Shown here: positions 31,765 to 49,834 of the stretch, piece after piece
Layout: every line of letters begins with the position of its first letter
Numbering within the stretch: the first letter of the stretch is position 1
Source: Komagataeibacter xylinus NBRC 15237
Lineage (GTDB): Bacteria; Pseudomonadota; Alphaproteobacteria; Acetobacterales; Acetobacteraceae
Length of the DNA: 64,000 nt
Direction: 5' to 3'
NCBI RefSeq assembly: GCF_001571345.1
Contig: NZ_BCTP01000016.1
Span: 1 to 64,000 of the forward strand
The notes under the pieces: generated by a model
What the model saw: only the letters and a program-made list of their open reading frames with translations
What the model was told of the DNA's origin: nothing
Databases searched by the model: none
Position numbers and translations under genes: made by a program

Positions 31765-32736
31765 TTACTTCCAGACCCATTTACCAACCACGCGCCCATT
31801 GATCACGAGGTCAGAGGCATCGACCTCATCCACCGGATAGGTCGGGTTGACGCTGATGATGCGGATGCGCGGCGGGCGGGAATTGGGCACCAGCATCAAC
31901 TGCTTGATGACCACGCCCATGCCGTTCCACAGCACATACACGCCGTCGGGCGAGGGAATGCGGTGGCCCGTATCGACCAGCACGCGATCACCTGCCACGA
32001 ATTCCGGCTCCATGGAATTGCCCGCCACGCGGATGATGGCAAGCCCCCCGGTATCAGGCAGGTAATTGCGAATGAAATCACTCGGAATGCGCCATGAATC
32101 CAGCGTGGGATGGCCTTCACCATCCCCACAGGCCGTGTGGTCCACGATTGCGCCAGCACCGGCCTGGGGCGAAATATCGTATTCGTGCACGGTTACCGCA
32201 CCATCTTCGTTATGCACCGGCATGCTTGCGCGTTCGGCACGGCTTATGCTCTCGTTGAGGTCCGTCGCACCCGGCACGATGCCGCACAGGGCCCAGACTT
32301 CGGATGCGGCAATGGGCGGGTCGCCACGGTCAGTCAGCAGGGGCACCAGTTTGCGCACCAGTTCAACGGGAATGAAGTCTTTTTTCAGCTTGTTCTCATA
32401 GAAAGCATAGCTGGAAAATCTCTCTCCCATGCCCACGTCGCGCGCCAGCGCCCGCACGGTGTAACCCGCCCGCTCCCGCAGGGCCTTGAGCCGCGAGGCT
32501 GCGGCACTCGCTCCCCCGCTACTGCCGCTACGCAGCAGGTCGCTTGCGGTGCAGCCCAGAATGGCAGCCACTTTTTCCAGCCGGTCGCCTCCGGGATTGC
32601 GGGATTTGCCGCGCAGGATGTCATGCACGTAGGTTTCGTTCAGCCCGGCCAGATCGGCCAGACGTTTTTTATTGAGGTTAAGCCGCTCCATGCGGCGTTC
32701 AATCTCGACTGCGGCGGGGGAGCGTGTGTCATCCAT
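31765..32736 (-). CDS. HTH/S24 peptidase phage-type repressor (CI/LexA-like)
   Basis: 323 residues. An N-terminal XRE-type HTH (~10-65, KKRLADLAGLNETYVHDILRG) is followed by a second HTH-like segment (~85-125, LKALRERAGYTVRALARDVG). The C-terminal S24 domain has RVAGNSMEPEFVAGDRVLVD (catalytic Ser ~245) and GVYVLWNGMGVVIKQL (catalytic Lys ~283). Such repressors cleave themselves on RecA activation. Three TGGGA-N4-TCCCA operators lie directly upstream, so it is autoregulated. It is the only repressor near the prophage. Confidence 0.9.
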   Translation of the reverse strand: MDDTRSPAAVEIERRMERLNLNKKRLADLAGLNETYVHDILRGKSRNPGGDRLEKVAAILGCTASDLLRSGSSGGASAAASRLKALRERAGYTVRALARDVGMGERFSSYAFYENKLKKDFIPVELVRKLVPLLTDRGDPPIAASEVWALCGIVPGATDLNESISRAERASMPVHNEDGAVTVHEYDISPQAGAGAIVDHTACGDGEGHPTLDSWRIPSDFIRNYLPDTGGLAIIRVAGNSMEPEFVAGDRVLVDTGHRIPSPDGVYVLWNGMGVVIKQLMLVPNSRPPRIRIISVNPTYPVDEVDASDLVINGRVVGKWVWK

Positions 32737-34806: not shown

Positions 34807-35880
34807 ATGAAGACCACCGGCCTCTGCCTTGCCCTGCTTTCTGCCGTGCTGTTTGGCGCAAGCACGCCTTTTGCCAAGCTGCTGCTTGGCGACATGTCAG
34901 CCCAGATGGCGGCGGGCCTGCTCTATCTTGGCTCCGGCCTGGGGCTGGCACTGGTGCTGGCCGCGCGCGCTGGCCTGCGGCTCCCCACGCATGATGAAGC
35001 CCCCCTTGCACGCCGCGACCTGCCTTGGCTGCTGGGGGTGATCGCGACCGGGGGCGTAGCTGGCCCGCTGCTGCTCATGCTTGGCCTTGCCCGCACGGAT
35101 GCGGCGAGCGCCTCGCTTCTGCTCAATGTCGAGAGCATTGCAACGCTGCTGATCGCATGGGGGGTGTTTCGTGAAAACGTGGATCGCAGGCTGCTGTTCG
35201 GCGCTGCGTGCATCGTGCTGGGGGCGGGCGTGCTGTCATGGCAGGGCCATGCGGTGCTGGCGCCGGGCGCACTTTACATCGTTGCAGCATGCGTGTGCTG
35301 GGGCATTGATAACAACCTGAGCAATCACCTTTCGGCAGTTGATCCCGTGCGCATCGCCATGCTCAAGGGCGTTGTGGCGGGTAGTGTCAACCTGCTCGCA
35401 GCCCTTGTGTTGCAACACGCGCATCTGCCGGGGCCAGCGCTGGTGGTGGGGGCTGCGGCCGTGGGATTTCTGGGCTACGGGGTGAGCCTCGTGGCCTTCA
35501 TGCTGGGGCTGCGCCATCTGGGGGCGGCGCGGACGGGGGCATATTTTGCGCTGGCACCGTTTGTAGGGGCAGTGGTGTCACTCGCGCTGTTCCCGGCGCA
35601 GGGCGTGGCGCGGCTGCTTGTGGCGGCGGTGCTCATGGGCATCGGGCTGTGGCTGCACCTGACCGAACGCCATGACCACCCGCATGTGCATGAGCAAATG
35701 GCCCATACCCATCGCCACGTGCATGATGCGCACCACCAGCACGACCACGGCCCAGATGACCCGCCGGGCGAGCCGCACACCCATTACCACGTGCATACGC
35801 GGCTGGAGCACAGTCACGCCCATTATCCCGACCTGCATCATCGCCACGACCATGAGGACGGGCACAGCCACGCTGCCTGA
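34807..35880 (+). CDS. EamA/DMT-family transporter with His-rich C-terminal tail
   Basis: 357 residues. About ten membrane helices (~5-285) form two EamA repeats: ALLSAVLFGASTPFAKLLLG and the second-half ALYIVAACVCWGIDNNLSNHLS. After the last helix a cytosolic tail of about 70 residues has over 25 histidines in H-x-H patterns (e.g. THRHVHDAHHQHDHG, HYHVHTRLEHSHAH). The tail suggests binding of Zn, Ni, Co or Cu and a metal or metal-complex export role. Divergent from the ComJ-like remnant. Confidence 0.85.
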   Translation: MKTTGLCLALLSAVLFGASTPFAKLLLGDMSAQMAAGLLYLGSGLGLALVLAARAGLRLPTHDEAPLARRDLPWLLGVIATGGVAGPLLLMLGLARTDAASASLLLNVESIATLLIAWGVFRENVDRRLLFGAACIVLGAGVLSWQGHAVLAPGALYIVAACVCWGIDNNLSNHLSAVDPVRIAMLKGVVAGSVNLLAALVLQHAHLPGPALVVGAAAVGFLGYGVSLVAFMLGLRHLGAARTGAYFALAPFVGAVVSLALFPAQGVARLLVAAVLMGIGLWLHLTERHDHPHVHEQMAHTHRHVHDAHHQHDHGPDDPPGEPHTHYHVHTRLEHSHAHYPDLHHRHDHEDGHSHAA

Positions 35881-38363: not shown

Positions 38364-39663
38364 CCTCACGCCCGACCAGCATGCCGCCAACCGGCTACTG
38401 GGGGGTGCGGCCACCCACATCCTGCTGCGGGGCGGGGCGCGTTCGGGCAAGACATTCGTGCTGGTACGCGCGCTGGTTATTCGGGCACTCCGGGCGACGG
38501 GCACGCGGCATGGCATATTTCGCCACAGGTTCAACGCTTTGCGGGCCACCATTGTGGTCGACACGTTTCCCACCGTCATGCGCCGGTGCTTTCCCTCCGT
38601 GCCGTGGCAACTTTCGCGCACCGACTGGAGCGTGACACTGCCCAATGGCTCCCTCATCATGTTTGGCGGGCTGGATGACGAGGAACGGACTGAAAAGATA
38701 CTGGGGCTGGAATTCGCCACCGTCTACCTTAACGAAGCAAGCCAGGTCGCTTATGGCGCGCGCAACATGCTGCTCACAAGGCTGGCGCAGAAATCGCCCC
38801 TGGCGCTGAAGGAATATATCGATGCCAACCCCCCAACCACCGCGCACTGACTTTACCGCGTGTTTGAATCCGGTATCGAGCCTTCATCGGGCCAGCCTTT
38901 GCCAGACCCCGCGTGCTACGCCACCATGCAGCTCAACCCGGAGGGCAACCGGGCCAATCTCTCGGCGGAATATCTAGCCCAGCTCGCGGCCCTGCCGGAG
39001 CGTGAACGCAGGCGCTTCGTGCAGGGAGAATACCAGCAGGCTGTCGATGGCGCTTTGTGGCACCTGGAGGATTTTCGCCGCGCCGCTGCAATAACACCCG
39101 CAACCCGCCGCCATGTGGGCACGCAGATGCGGCGCATCGTGGTGGCGGTTGACCCGTCAGGCTGCGCCGGGCCGGAAGATACCCGCTCCGATGAAATCGG
39201 CATCATCGTGTGCGGGGTGGATGGCGCAGGGTGTGGCCATGTACTGGCCGACCTGTCGCGGCGCGATACGCCTGCGGGCTGGGCGCGAACCGCGCTGCAG
39301 GCCCAGTCGGACTGGGCTGCCGAGCGCATCGTGGCCGAACACAATTTTGGTGGCGCCCTGGTTGAGGCCACGCTGCGCGGGCTGAACCCGAATGCCGCCC
39401 TGCGCATGGTCACCGCCAGCCGGGGCAAGGCGGCACGGGCCGAGCCGGTGGCGGCGTTATATGAACAGGGCCGCGTGACCCATCATGGCATCTACCCGGA
39501 ACTTGAGGAACAGCTCTGTCAGTTTTCAGCAGGTGGCTATCACGGCCCGCATTCACCAGACCGGGCGGATGCACTGGTCTGGGCGCTGACCGACCTCATG
39601 CTGTCCGCGCCGCCCGCCGCTCCCGCGCGCTGGGCGCCCACGCGTTTCAACATCGGTCGTTAA
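38347..39663 (+). pseudogene. phage terminase large subunit, interrupted by in-frame TGA
   Basis: 438 codons including the stop. N-terminal ATPase: Walker A LRGGARSGKTFVLVRALVIR (~27-46), Walker B-like EFATVYLNEASQVAYGA (~122). At 38848-38850, codon TGA replaces a residue where the family has Trp (NPPTTAH-stop-LYRVFE; the usual form is H-W-x-Y-x-x-F). The same frame continues to 39663 with the nuclease domain: VVAVDPSGCAG, RIVAEHNFGGALVEATLRG and HSPDRADALVWALTDLM. The TGA is followed by C, a leaky context. It is a nonsense mutation, readthrough, or a sequencing error. Confidence 0.88.
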
Positions 39664-46225: not shown

Positions 46226-47713
46226 ATGACCATCTATCAGTCCGGGCAGCTTAACACCAACAGCCTGAGCGTGCCGGATCTGTACGTGCAGATCCTCAAA
46301 CCGCAGACCCTGGCGCTCAACGGCGTGGCAACCGGGCGGATCGGCCTGGTGGGCACGGCAGGGTGGGGGCCGGTAGCGTCACCGGTCATCATCGGCAGCA
46401 TGGGTGACTGCCTGAGCGCGTTCGGCCCCAAGCAGGCGCAGGCGAACGATATCGGCACGGCGGTGAACATTGCCGTCGTGCAGGGCGCATCCGACTTTCG
46501 CTGCGTGCGGGTGAGCGATGGCACCGATGTGGCGGCCACGGGCACGCTGGCGGGCGTAACCCTGACCGCCATCCATACGGGCAGCGCGGGCAACGCCCTT
46601 GTGGCGACACTGGCGCAGGACCCCATCATCACCACGCATTACACGCTTACGGTCAGTCACGCAGTGCTGGGCACCCGCACCTATCGCGGCGCGACATGGC
46701 CGGTTCTTGCCGCCGCCATTGCAGCCGATGGCACGGCGCTTGTGCGCGTAACCGTGCCGACGACGGTGCCTGCGCCTGAAGCGGGTTCGGCAACACTTGC
46801 CGGGGGCAGCGATGGCGGCGTGCCCACGACCGCGCAATTCCTGGGCATGGATGGCACGAGCCGCACCGGCATGTATGCCCTGCGCGGGCAGGGCTGTGCG
46901 ATCGGGCTGCTGCATGGCGTGGTGGATGACACGTCATGGACCACGCAGGCCGCTTTTGGCCTGGGCGAAGGCATGTACATGATTGCCTGCGGCCCGGCAG
47001 GCGACAATATTGCCAATGCAGTGGCCATGAAAAATGCCGCGGGGCTGGACAGCTATGCCGTAAAGCTGATGTTTGGTGACTGGCTGTGGTGGGATGATGA
47101 CACCAATGGCGACATGCTGGTGCCGCCGCAGGCGTTTGCTGCGGGCATCCTTGGCGGCCTCTCACCCGAGCAGTCGAGCCTGAACAAGGAACTGTACGGC
47201 GTGATTGGCAGCCAGAAGGCAGGGCTGGCCAGTAGCGGGCAGGCCGCGACCTATTCCGGCGCAGAACTGTCGGCGCTGTTTACGGCGGGCATCGACGTGA
47301 TCTGCAACCCGGCACCCGGCGGCAGCTACTGGGCGGTGCGCGGCGGCATCAATACCGCATCCGATGACGTGACGGATGATGATACCTATACGCGCCTGAC
47401 CAACTACATTGCCGAAACACTCAATGCGGGCATGGGCGCGTTCGTGGGGGCCGTCATCTGCGCCACGCTGTATGGCGACATCCGCGCCGTGCTGCTGGGC
47501 ACGCTGTCGAACATGGTGGGTAGCGGCATACTGGGGGCAAGCACGGATTACGCCGTGCTGTGCGACACGAGCAATAACCCCCAGTCGCGCACGGCGCTGG
47601 GTTACGTGCGCGCTGACGTGCAGGTGCGCTATCAGGGGATTAACCGTTTCTTCGTGGTAAACCTGCAGGGTGGGGCGAGTGTTACGGTCAGCACCGCAAC
47701 AGCAGCGGCCTGA
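46226..47713 (+). CDS. phage tail sheath protein
   Basis: 495 residues, matching sheath size. N-terminal arm LYVQILKPQTLALNGVATGR and GTAGWGPVASPVIIGSMGDC, with the sheath core of VTLTAIHTGSAGNALVATL, and the C-terminal SNMVGSGILGASTDYAVLCD and NRFFVVNLQGGASVTVSTAT. Forms the contractile outer tail tube; shows that this is a myophage. A dispersed repeat lies directly after. Confidence 0.88.
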   Translation: MTIYQSGQLNTNSLSVPDLYVQILKPQTLALNGVATGRIGLVGTAGWGPVASPVIIGSMGDCLSAFGPKQAQANDIGTAVNIAVVQGASDFRCVRVSDGTDVAATGTLAGVTLTAIHTGSAGNALVATLAQDPIITTHYTLTVSHAVLGTRTYRGATWPVLAAAIAADGTALVRVTVPTTVPAPEAGSATLAGGSDGGVPTTAQFLGMDGTSRTGMYALRGQGCAIGLLHGVVDDTSWTTQAAFGLGEGMYMIACGPAGDNIANAVAMKNAAGLDSYAVKLMFGDWLWWDDDTNGDMLVPPQAFAAGILGGLSPEQSSLNKELYGVIGSQKAGLASSGQAATYSGAELSALFTAGIDVICNPAPGGSYWAVRGGINTASDDVTDDDTYTRLTNYIAETLNAGMGAFVGAVICATLYGDIRAVLLGTLSNMVGSGILGASTDYAVLCDTSNNPQSRTALGYVRADVQVRYQGINRFFVVNLQGGASVTVSTATAAA

Positions 47714-47873: not shown

Positions 47874-48305
47874 ATGTCCCTCAAACCCTTCAATATCGGC
47901 CGCGACTGCCGCGTGGTGCTGGTCTATAACGGCAGCCGCATCGACCTGCCCACGGTCACAGGCTTCAATGCAGCCCAGCGCACCCATCAGCTGGAATCAA
48001 ATCCGCTGAACGACATGCCCCTGTTCTATGACGTGCCCGGTGGCTGGGGTGGCCAGTTTTCCTTCCAGCGTGATGGTTCGGGGGCTGATGACCTGTTTGC
48101 CGCGATCGAGAGCGGGTTCTGGTCAGCCGGTACGGTCATTCTGGGCAGCATCTACCAGTATGTGACCGAATGCGATGGTTCGCTGAGCACGTACGAATTC
48201 ATCGGCGCTTCCCTCAAACTGTCGGATGCGGGGCGCTACCAGTCCGAAACGCTGGTCACGCAGACCATCACGTTCACGGCCCGCGCCCGCAACCGCATTT
48301 CCTGA
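47874..48305 (+). CDS. phage tail tube protein
   Basis: 143 residues. Tail-tube fold: MSLKPFNIGRDCRVVLVYNG, LPTVTGFNAAQRTHQLESNP, GGWGGQFSFQRDGSGADDLF and a C-terminal beta strand TLVTQTITFTARARNRIS. Forms the inner hexameric tube. Follows the sheath as in other myophages. Confidence 0.85.
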   Translation: MSLKPFNIGRDCRVVLVYNGSRIDLPTVTGFNAAQRTHQLESNPLNDMPLFYDVPGGWGGQFSFQRDGSGADDLFAAIESGFWSAGTVILGSIYQYVTECDGSLSTYEFIGASLKLSDAGRYQSETLVTQTITFTARARNRIS

Positions 48306-48328: not shown

Positions 48329-48640
48329 ATGACGGAAAAAACCGTAAAGACCCCTGATGGCCGCACCCTGACCTACCGCGAGCGCGGGCCGGGCGATGTG
48401 CTCGCCCTGCTTGAGTTCGGGCCGGATACGCCTTCAACCGCGTGGCTGGAATACGCGCTCATGGTCAGTTCGGTCGAGGCGATCGACGGTGTGCCCGTCA
48501 TCCGCCCGCAAACGCGCGTGCAGCTTGAGCAGCTTGCCAACCAGATCGGTAATGACGGCATTGAGGTGCTCAGCACGGCCCTGTTTGGCCCCGATGCACA
48601 GGCCACCGCCGATACGGAGGCCCAAGCCGCAAAAAACTGA
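48329..48640 (+). CDS. tail assembly chaperone, zero-frame product (gpG-like)
   Basis: 103 residues: MTEKTVKTPDGRTLTYRERG ... VIRPQTRVQLEQLANQIGND ... TEAQAAKN, ending at TGA 48638-48640. Positioned between tube and tape measure, as for lambda G or P2 E. The last codons GCA AAA AAC contain a slippery heptamer that leads to the longer product. Confidence 0.85.
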   Translation: MTEKTVKTPDGRTLTYRERGPGDVLALLEFGPDTPSTAWLEYALMVSSVEAIDGVPVIRPQTRVQLEQLANQIGNDGIEVLSTALFGPDAQATADTEAQAAKN

Positions 48641-48813
48641 GCCGGCACCCCGTGCTGATCGAAGTGGCGGCGTTAGTCGGGCACGGGGTGCCGTGGGATG
48701 TGGCCATGGCCATGCCGCGCGTGCGGCGCATGGCCTTTCTGGTCGCCTTCGGGGAACTTGCAGGCGGTCGCTATGACTGGAGCATGCAACAATGGGAGTA
48801 TCCTGATGGCTGA
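48329..48813 (+). CDS. tail assembly chaperone, -1 frameshift product (gpGT-like)
   Basis: After slipping back one base at A-AAA-AAC (48631-48637), translation continues KKLSRHPVLIEVAALVGHGV ... MAFLVAFGELAGGRYDWSMQ ... QWEYPDG and stops at TGA 48811. The added 58 or so residues include R-Y-D-W-S, typical of T-type tail chaperone extensions. It overlaps the tape-measure start (ATGGCTGA). Confidence 0.85.
48631..48693 (+). promoter_or_regulatory. -1 programmed ribosomal frameshift signal
   Basis: Slippery heptamer AAAAAAC (48631-48637) is followed by a 5-nt spacer and a perfect 13-bp stem, CGGCACCCCGTGC (48643-48655) pairing with GCACGGGGTGCCG (48681-48693), loop 25 nt. This is the full bacterial/phage -1 frameshift layout. 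Confidence 0.88.
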
Positions 48814-49834
48814 ATCCTGTCAGGCCACGACACGCCTGGTCATGCGGCTTCAGGCTGCGGGGGCCGCTGGCCTGTCCGCGCCGGTTGCACGCCTGCCGGG
48901 GCGACGCGGGCACCCGGCAGGTGCCATGGCAAGACTGGCTGCGGCGGTGGGACGGCTGGGGCAGGCTACCACCCGCCCTGTCATGGCGGCCCGCTTTCGC
49001 CTGCCTGAACGCCGCCATAAGGGTCTGGCGCAGGTCTCGACCGGGTCGGGGGAAGCGCGCGACACGCGGGCAATACAGCCGGGTCAGCCCGTCGGCCACC
49101 GTGCCCGTGGCTGGTTCCGCCAGGGTAAAAAAGGAGAATCATACAGGCGCGGCGCAGGGTCAGCAGTCACGAATAACCCTGCACCCGCCTTGGACAGGAA
49201 CGGGCGGGATGGCACAATGCGTACGCGTGTGCCCTATGACCCACGCATGGTGTCACGCCTGACATGCCTGAAGCGCCTGCCAACGGGCACTACATCGAAC
49301 GCCCGCCCGGACCCGGTGGCCTTTGCCGGAGCTACGCAGCAGCGGGGCAGGCTCATGAGCCGCGCCATGCCTGCGCCACGCAGGCCCAGGCCAGCCCCCA
49401 TGAGGGTTGTGCCGGGTCAGGGCCACATCATGTCCGTCCCGCCTGTGGCGGGCAGGCGGCAGGCGCCGTACAGGCCTGGCTTGCTGCACCACGGCCCGAA
49501 CAGCCATAGTACGCGGCGTAGTGTGCTGCCTGCGGGCATGCGTGGCTCCCGCAACATCCTCCCGCCACGCGTGCAACCCCGGACACAGGCCCGGCCCGCC
49601 TTCATCAGTCCGGCTCCCATGGTCCGTGCCCGCACGCCCGGCAGCGCGGATCAGGCCATGGCCGGTGCGCCCATCGTACAGGTCACCATTCCCGTAACAC
49701 TGGACCAGCATAATGTGGGGCAGGCTTTTGCCCGCATAGAAACCAGCCGCGCCCTTATCGAGCATCGCGCCACCGGCACCGCGCCCGATGGCATACAGCA
49801 TGTGCAGCTACCCGGCCGCTCCGTGGGTATATGA
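48806..49834 (+). CDS. short Arg/Pro-rich tape-measure candidate
   Basis: 342 residues from ATG 48806. Composition is rich in Arg, Pro, Ala and Gly, unlike typical hydrophobic coiled tape measures. Only the C-terminus looks structured (AGAPIVQVTIPVTLDQHNVG then FARIETSRALIEH). Position after the chaperones suggests tape measure or minor tail protein. It is far shorter than most tape measures, so it may be truncated, have moved function, or come from a short-tailed relative. Confidence 0.55.
   Translation: MAESCQATTRLVMRLQAAGAAGLSAPVARLPGRRGHPAGAMARLAAAVGRLGQATTRPVMAARFRLPERRHKGLAQVSTGSGEARDTRAIQPGQPVGHRARGWFRQGKKGESYRRGAGSAVTNNPAPALDRNGRDGTMRTRVPYDPRMVSRLTCLKRLPTGTTSNARPDPVAFAGATQQRGRLMSRAMPAPRRPRPAPMRVVPGQGHIMSVPPVAGRRQAPYRPGLLHHGPNSHSTRRSVLPAGMRGSRNILPPRVQPRTQARPAFISPAPMVRARTPGSADQAMAGAPIVQVTIPVTLDQHNVGQAFARIETSRALIEHRATGTAPDGIQHVQLPGRSVGI

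Follow-up and report, generated by a model that had tools for sequence, protein, structure and literature searches.

A probable −1 ribosomal frameshift site on AAC heptamers in a phage-like tail locus of Komagataeibacter and its relatives

Introduction

A short open reading frame that lies in the −1 frame immediately behind a candidate tail chaperone gene may be reached by ribosomes that slip out of the first frame, may be translated from a start of its own, or may be a relic. We asked which of these readings best fits a locus of Komagataeibacter xylinus NBRC 15237, using a 64,000-nt stretch of DNA (the window), taken from one contig of its 3.6-Mb genome, together with the relatives of the locus in bacterial genomes and viral collections.

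In phage lambda, a −1 frameshift near the end of gene G adds a short T domain to the product, with AAG as the A-site codon of the slippery sequence. In the contractile-tailed phages P2 (E/E′) and Mu (gp41/FS-gp41), too, the tail chaperone region contains a −1 frameshift. The P2 frameshift is among those described in the accessible part of PMC5009743.

Results

Anatomy of the site

The gene order in the window (sheath, probable tube, G/T gene, candidate tape measure, baseplate genes) is that of a contractile-tail module, with the following features around the G/T gene:

46226–47713, + strand: sheath gene (phrog_23)
47874–48305, + strand: probable tail tube gene, 3′ of the sheath gene (phrog_12993, unknown function; putative tube role)
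48329–48640, + strand: gene for a G-like, putative tail assembly chaperone, zero frame, 103 aa, an ORF ending GCA AAA AAC TGA
48631–48637, + strand: slippery heptamer A_AAA_AAC, in frame; a slippery heptamer occupies the same place in 136 of 137 loci
48638–48640, + strand: zero-frame stop TGA, directly 3′ of the heptamer
48643–48655, + strand: 5′ arm of the stem, conserved core 48644–48652 (synonymous constraint, pair counts)
48656–48680, + strand: loop, 25 nt
48681–48693, + strand: 3′ arm of the stem, conserved core 48684–48692 (GGGGTGCC nearly invariant)
48637–48813, + strand: T-like −1 extension, 58 codons plus stop, from CTG 48637 to TGA 48811–48813
48806–49834, + strand: candidate tape measure gene, 342 aa, fast evolving; role suggested by position

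A preliminary description of this DNA had reported an in-phase A_AAA_AAC heptamer with TGA directly after it, a 5-nt spacer, a perfect 13-bp stem with a 25-nt loop and a −1 frame open for about 58 codons. Inspection of the sequence bore out each of these elements: the stem arms are complementary at 13 of 13 positions, heptamer and stem are separated by 5 nt, and the −1 frame runs for exactly 58 codons to the TGA at 48811–48813. The downstream ORF, called tape measure in that description, is a candidate for this role. Its position fits the name, and so does its C-terminus, where 23 aa match (74%) a segment close to the end of a tape-measure-like protein (742 aa) from the Komagataeibacter phage phiKX2, but the 342-aa product matches no Pfam family at E 1. 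The length of this protein ranges from 342 aa in the window and 337–457 in four near relatives to 742 in phiKX2; its omega is 0.35–0.63, about 0.6 in two near pairs, and its neighbours evolve more slowly.

To gauge chance, the window was scanned for heptamers of the type XXX+AAA/TTT+N that have, 4–9 nt 3′, a perfectly paired stem no shorter than 9 bp and with a loop of up to 45 nt. Only one of the 125 heptamers on the + strand qualifies, and it is this site; one of the 128 on the − strand has such a stem (9 bp). Stems of 13 bp or more follow 9 of 20,000 random + strand positions. Single-sequence fold energy is unexceptional for such GC-rich DNA (z −1.93; 11 of 200 dinucleotide shuffles equal or better), and the case for the site is therefore one of placement and conservation rather than energy.

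The heptamer and the frame relation among relatives

Used as a query, the joined G–T protein matched 2 of 50,697 phage records, 9 viral contigs and, within the window's family, 160 of 397 genomes. The set assembled for comparison has 137 loci: 30 genome loci, 96 further genome regions from the matches listed (weaker matches lie outside the set), 9 viral loci, 1 phage record and one locus, L001, gathered by DNA. The window's own place is included twice, as one of the 30 genome loci and as L001, and a 29-nt DNA match (L002) was excluded. These loci are related by descent, so the counts that follow are not counts of independent events.

An in-frame slippery heptamer stands exactly at the start of T in 136 of the 137 loci. 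The exception, L052, reads AAAAAAC (GCAAAAAACTGA) too, and its T frame is broken farther on. Where the preliminary description had raised the prospect of homologues without the heptamer and with no protein conservation in the −1 frame, the opposite was found: the heptamer is in place in 136 loci and its letters are present in the 137th. The 136 loci reduce to 130 distinct stretches, every one of which carries a heptamer by construction: AAAAAAC in 73, GGGAAAC in 54, and AAAAAAT, AAAAAAA and GGGAAAT in one each. No AAG heptamer occurs among the 130. The zero-frame stop lies directly 3′ of the heptamer in 121 of them and ends 21 nt on in 9. On the protein tree the first triplet of the heptamer changed five times between AAA and GGG, and no non-slippery intermediate of this triplet was found among the 137 loci. 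Wherever G is recognised beside T, L052 apart, the second frame is −1, and this relation is kept across proteins that are 40–50% identical.

T could instead be a separate gene with its own start (e.g. GTG 48652), translated by coupling after the G stop, the heptamer being incidental. That GTG does stand in the T frame, at least one ATG, GTG or TTG falls within the first 16 T codons in 87 of 130 relatives, and phiKX2 is annotated with two separate hypothetical ORFs. However, 43 of the 130 have no such codon, an open upstream one is found in only 15, the conserved T residues L-S-R-H-P begin at the heptamer itself, and a start within T would explain neither heptamer nor stem. We consider a separate T gene very unlikely.

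Conservation of the downstream stem

When positions +7 to +129 were scanned for helices of at least 4 bp with all pairs formed in at least 80% of the 130 sequences, a single helix emerged. It is a 9-bp core that pairs +13 to +21 with +61 to +53, each pair being present in 90–99% of sequences, and it is part of the window's 13-bp stem. In a gap-free alignment of 126 distinct 70-nt elements, 85.7% of the cells at the window's 13 pairs are paired, against 80.0 in shuffles and 40.5–47.7% in slid controls, and the covariation score of 0.196 (0.116 in shuffles) was reached by none of 500 shuffles. The number of pairs changed on both sides, six, was reached by 157 of 500 shuffles and is not above chance; the core pairs vary little. 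Tree counts place both-sided pair-to-pair changes in core pairs 18-56 (2) and 21-53 (4), with mainly one-sided changes at 17-57, 18-56, 20-54 and 21-53. Pairs 12-62, 22-52, 23-51 and 24-50 often break, so that pairing outside the 9-bp core appears to be optional. The stem that the preliminary description had pointed to in the window is thus conserved among homologues as its 9-bp core, by pair counts and helix scan alike.

At least 6 of the 9 core pairs form in 120 of 125 single-sequence folds. Two loci, L048 and L085, have 5 core pairs each; in another two, L106 and L124, the stem is kept but shifted by one base, with SRHP replaced by AGTP or SRAP. A natural stem-less variant also exists: L114 (1040–1109) keeps AAAAAAC and the −1 frame and has lost the stem. 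RNAalifold did not return the stem from all 126 aligned rows; with 125 sequences it did so once L106, L114 and L124 were left out (122 remaining) or when other scoring was used, and the failure on the full alignment is therefore due, at least in part, to the register-shifted and stem-less rows.

The stem arms also encode protein, (S)RHP in one and GVP in the other, and codon choice separates the two constraints. Within the stem, Gly is GGG in 123 of 129 sequences (0.28 elsewhere in these genes), Val is GTG in 129 of 130 (0.48), His is CAC in 119 of 127 (0.45) and Pro is CCC in 86 of 113 (0.23). A Pro whose third base lies just outside the core uses CCG at 0.55, against 0.53 elsewhere, and a nearly invariant Gly farther 3′ uses GGC at 0.47, against 0.46. 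Furthermore, GGGGTGCC in the 3′ arm is nearly invariant despite two synonymous positions. These patterns in the alignment indicate that the protein code does not explain the conservation of the stem, which is selected as RNA.

Two further stimulators were considered. A pseudoknot between loop and downstream sequence was rejected for want of a conserved partner in the helix scan: +22 to +52 forms no helix of at least 4 bp with +62 to +109 at the 70% level. The window has a GGAGG at 48616–48620, ending 10 nt 5′ of the heptamer. Across the family, the frequency of strong Shine-Dalgarno-like sites upstream is 0.215; synonymous shuffles give 0.185, and a control position has 0.108. A family-wide upstream stimulator of the dnaX type, hardly above synonymous shuffles, has no clear support.

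The heptamers and the stem together bear on transcriptional slippage, in which the run of six A residues would give rise to mRNAs that fuse the two frames. The window and 73 of the 130 distinct stretches do have AAAAAAC, but 54 have GGGAAAC, with no long homopolymer, at the same position and before the same stem, and a conserved RNA stem 5–6 nt downstream points to the ribosome. Slippage during transcription is, in our judgement, exceedingly unlikely.

The G and T proteins

G matches phrog_20383 (unknown function) with an E value of 2.2e-30. The PHROG family annotated as 'tail assembly chaperone', phrog_508, was reached by 4 of 61 aligned members (best E 6e-4), and none of the 61 reaches a Pfam family at E 0.01. 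The AlphaFold model of G (pLDDT 89.9) has weak and mixed viral fold matches, which include tail chaperones, Mu FS-gp41 and also baseplate hub proteins; the single viral match with E below 0.001 is an unnamed phage protein, and nothing significant was found in the PDB. A role for G as a tail assembly chaperone is plausible.

The −1 frame had been described as protein-like, and it is indeed under purifying selection: omega is 0.06–0.31 for T in five pairs of 57–58 codons, and 0.08–0.28 for G in five pairs. Among 20 aligned T members, none matches Pfam at E 0.1 or PHROG at E 0.01, and one touches an uncharacterised PHROG at E 0.085. With no Pfam match at that threshold, T is not Phage_tail_T, unlike the T of lambda. 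That the −1 frame is the decayed remnant of a continuous gene and the inverted repeat a terminator or chance hairpin has a negligible claim to belief: some decay of the phage-like element is seen in this genome, whose large terminase gene has an in-frame stop, but the omega values of T and G, a frame relation unchanged across proteins only 40–50% identical, and the lack of a T run behind the hairpin all argue against it.

Spread of the DNA pattern

The signal can be searched for as DNA. In the pattern AAACT N4-6 GGCAYYC N28-40 GGGGTGCC, bases one to three of the heptamer are left open and no protein information is used; it occurs in at least 120 stretches of IMG/VR, a few of them on contigs already among the viral matches. 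Among the 120 matches listed, the heptamer is GGGAAAC in 92, AAAAAAC in 27 and non-slippery in 1, and T was recognised in 118 and G in 117. One match, L158, looks like a chance match to the pattern. Another, L171 (3030–3093), belongs to a different phage type: its −1 frame matches Pfam Phage_tail_T (E 2.3e-10), and its T gene lies behind GGGAAAC and a similar long stem, possibly a convergence of an unrelated lambda-type T gene on the same signal.

Scanning genome contigs returned at least 119 stretches; the titles among the matches listed name acetic acid bacteria, Acidocella, Acidiphilium and Rhodopila, and those of MAGs name Acetobacteraceae, Rhodospirillales, Alphaproteobacteria and Proteobacteria. 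In a draw from the order, the pattern occurs in 73 of 250 genomes, all of the window's family among the matches listed, and the reversed pattern in 1 of 250; in a draw from the class, it occurs in 2 of 385 genomes, both of the window's family. A G profile found no match outside Acetobacteraceae: the only one of 142 genomes to match was the window itself.

Chromosomal setting

The G/T gene belongs to a phage-like locus with head and contractile-tail genes that spans window positions 31765–59432. The host genes to its left are shared with three of four other genomes of the genus (G135, G060, G281); in the fourth, G303, what was found on the left side is limited to genes of the element and, starting at 33.1 kb, the transporter. 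The neighbours to the right (60.7–64 kb) are shared with three of the four (G135, G281, G303), and both sides with two. In Komagataeibacter the locus thus seems to sit at one fixed chromosomal site. A close version of the gene is present in 13 of 14 genus genomes drawn, the window's included. At synonymous sites the element genes have diverged to a similar degree as a host gene at 24–26 kb in two pairs, and as an EamA gene inside the locus in four pairs. Except for the candidate tape measure, the element genes tested have omega values of 0.01–0.36, as under purifying selection. A search for the tyrosine integrase family gave 18 matches, none of them on the window's contig.

Within the locus, the EamA-type transporter gene (34807–35880) lies between phage-like genes, and it has the same relative place in four of four other genomes tested. 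The large terminase gene has an in-frame stop at 38848–38850, and the aligned stretch of four relatives contains none.

Discussion

The 3′ end of the G gene is, very probably, a −1 programmed ribosomal frameshift site; on the comparative evidence gathered here this is by far the best explanation. Most ribosomes would stop at TGA 48638–48640 and yield the G-like protein of 103 aa. Some would be held up by the stem, 5 nt 3′ of the heptamer, slip with both tRNAs (Lys in the P site, Asn in the A site) from AAA AAC to AAA AAA and resume reading at CTG 48637; their product would be a 161-aa GT-like fusion, terminated at TGA 48811–48813. Slippage at some rate, and a chaperone role for the products, are what we infer from these features. 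If the analogy to lambda and P2 holds, G would bind the tape measure, while the T part would recruit the tail-tube protein.

In tandem slippage, the Asn tRNA is accepted in the zero frame before the slip. The junction peptide KKLSRHPV, which the preliminary description had proposed as the product, should accordingly be at most a minor form: under this established model, with Asn decoded before slippage, the main junction would read ...AKNLSRHPV. The predicted Glu-C junction peptides are AQAAKNLSRHPVLIE (main) and AQAAKKLSRHPVLIE (minor).

The site seems to represent a new family of a known kind, that of lambda G/GT, P2 E/E′ and Mu gp41, the family of signals being what is new. The lambda precedent cited in the preliminary description stands as regards the kind of mechanism, but not the A-site codon, which is AAC and not the AAG of lambda. 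Shared with lambda are a putative chaperone gene before the candidate tape measure, a probable −1 shift near the end of G, a short T domain and an X_XXA_AAZ heptamer, and two overlapping ORFs, the second in −1, do lie between the probable tube and candidate tape measure genes. Unlike lambda, the locus has a contractile-tail module, an AAC A-site codon in place of AAG, a conserved stem 5–6 nt downstream and a T without a Pfam family. For Mu, the fold of the modelled G protein weakly matches that of FS-gp41 (BFVD P0DJY4; Foldseek E 0.089, prob 0.90); no Pfam family shared with P2 or Mu was found.

The heptamers themselves have precedents. G_GGA_AAC and A_AAA_AAC occur in g–t shift sites of the haloarchaeal viruses HCTV-1 and HCTV-2 (PMC5009743, accessible part); these are siphoviruses of archaeal hosts, and the likeness, also in a tail chaperone gene, covers the heptamers alone. 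The bacterial IS cluster A_AAA_AAC_1 has proven frameshifting on A_AAA_AAC with no established stimulator, according to the accessible part of PMC4066793; it shares the heptamer, but in a transposase gene. Closer to home, the Komagataeibacter phages phiKX1 and phiKX2 (LC644975, LC644976) have homologues at 43.8% identity, and phiKX2 has both heptamer and stem. Their records give two hypothetical proteins under the match; in phiKX2 (L042 6348–6527), the annotation makes the T domain a hypothetical ORF of its own, with its start inside T. A term search of PMC8566455 for 'frameshift' returned nothing, and among the matches listed from the open literature on tail-chaperone frameshifting, phages of Acetobacteraceae and acetic acid bacteria, GTAs and defective Komagataeibacter prophages, none describes this signal.

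Why the family should use AAC is a further question. In E. coli, A_AAA_AAG is a far more efficient shift site than A_AAA_AAC (PMC5009743), and AAC heptamers shift much less than AAG (PMC4066793), in the accessible parts of both sources; efficiency there may therefore be low. According to the accessible part of PMC5009743, roughly one half of the bacteria known have just one lysine tRNA. The window's genome has tRNA-Lys genes with anticodons TTT and CTT (ARAGORN), and a pattern search finds the CTT type, matched exactly, in 16 of 16 genus genomes. A tRNA-Lys(CUU) reportedly disfavours AAG sites, and we offer as a hypothesis that the CUU tRNA-Lys of the host is linked to the absence of AAG sites. 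Queuosine decides nothing here, since a tgt homologue is present in the host and in all 14 control genomes.

The locus has the look of a phage-like element passed on by vertical descent and not of a recently acquired prophage, and it is possibly domesticated, PBSX- or GTA-like. Prophage regions of Komagataeibacter are described as decaying and strain-variable in the accessible part of PMC13028821, which does not mention a fixed one. As a tentative and rather doubtful extension, the frameshift might be one kept by the host in a domesticated, vertically inherited PBSX- or GTA-like particle, with AAC and a strong stem in use because tRNA-Lys(CUU), as a second lysine tRNA, would blunt AAG sites of the sort found in E. 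coli phages.

Judged by comparison of sequences, the site is real and correctly read, ordinary in kind and unusually well supported. What it contributes is a probable bacterial frameshift signal on AAC heptamers that spans a whole family and is comparatively well supported, a T domain that no Pfam or PHROG search of this study recognised, and a DNA pattern by which the gene can be located with no recourse to protein sequence. The natural variants, with AAA or GGG triplets, G-U changes, stems shifted by one base and a lost stem, form a ready test set, which bears on how bacterial ribosomes shift on AAC and on what the stem contributes.
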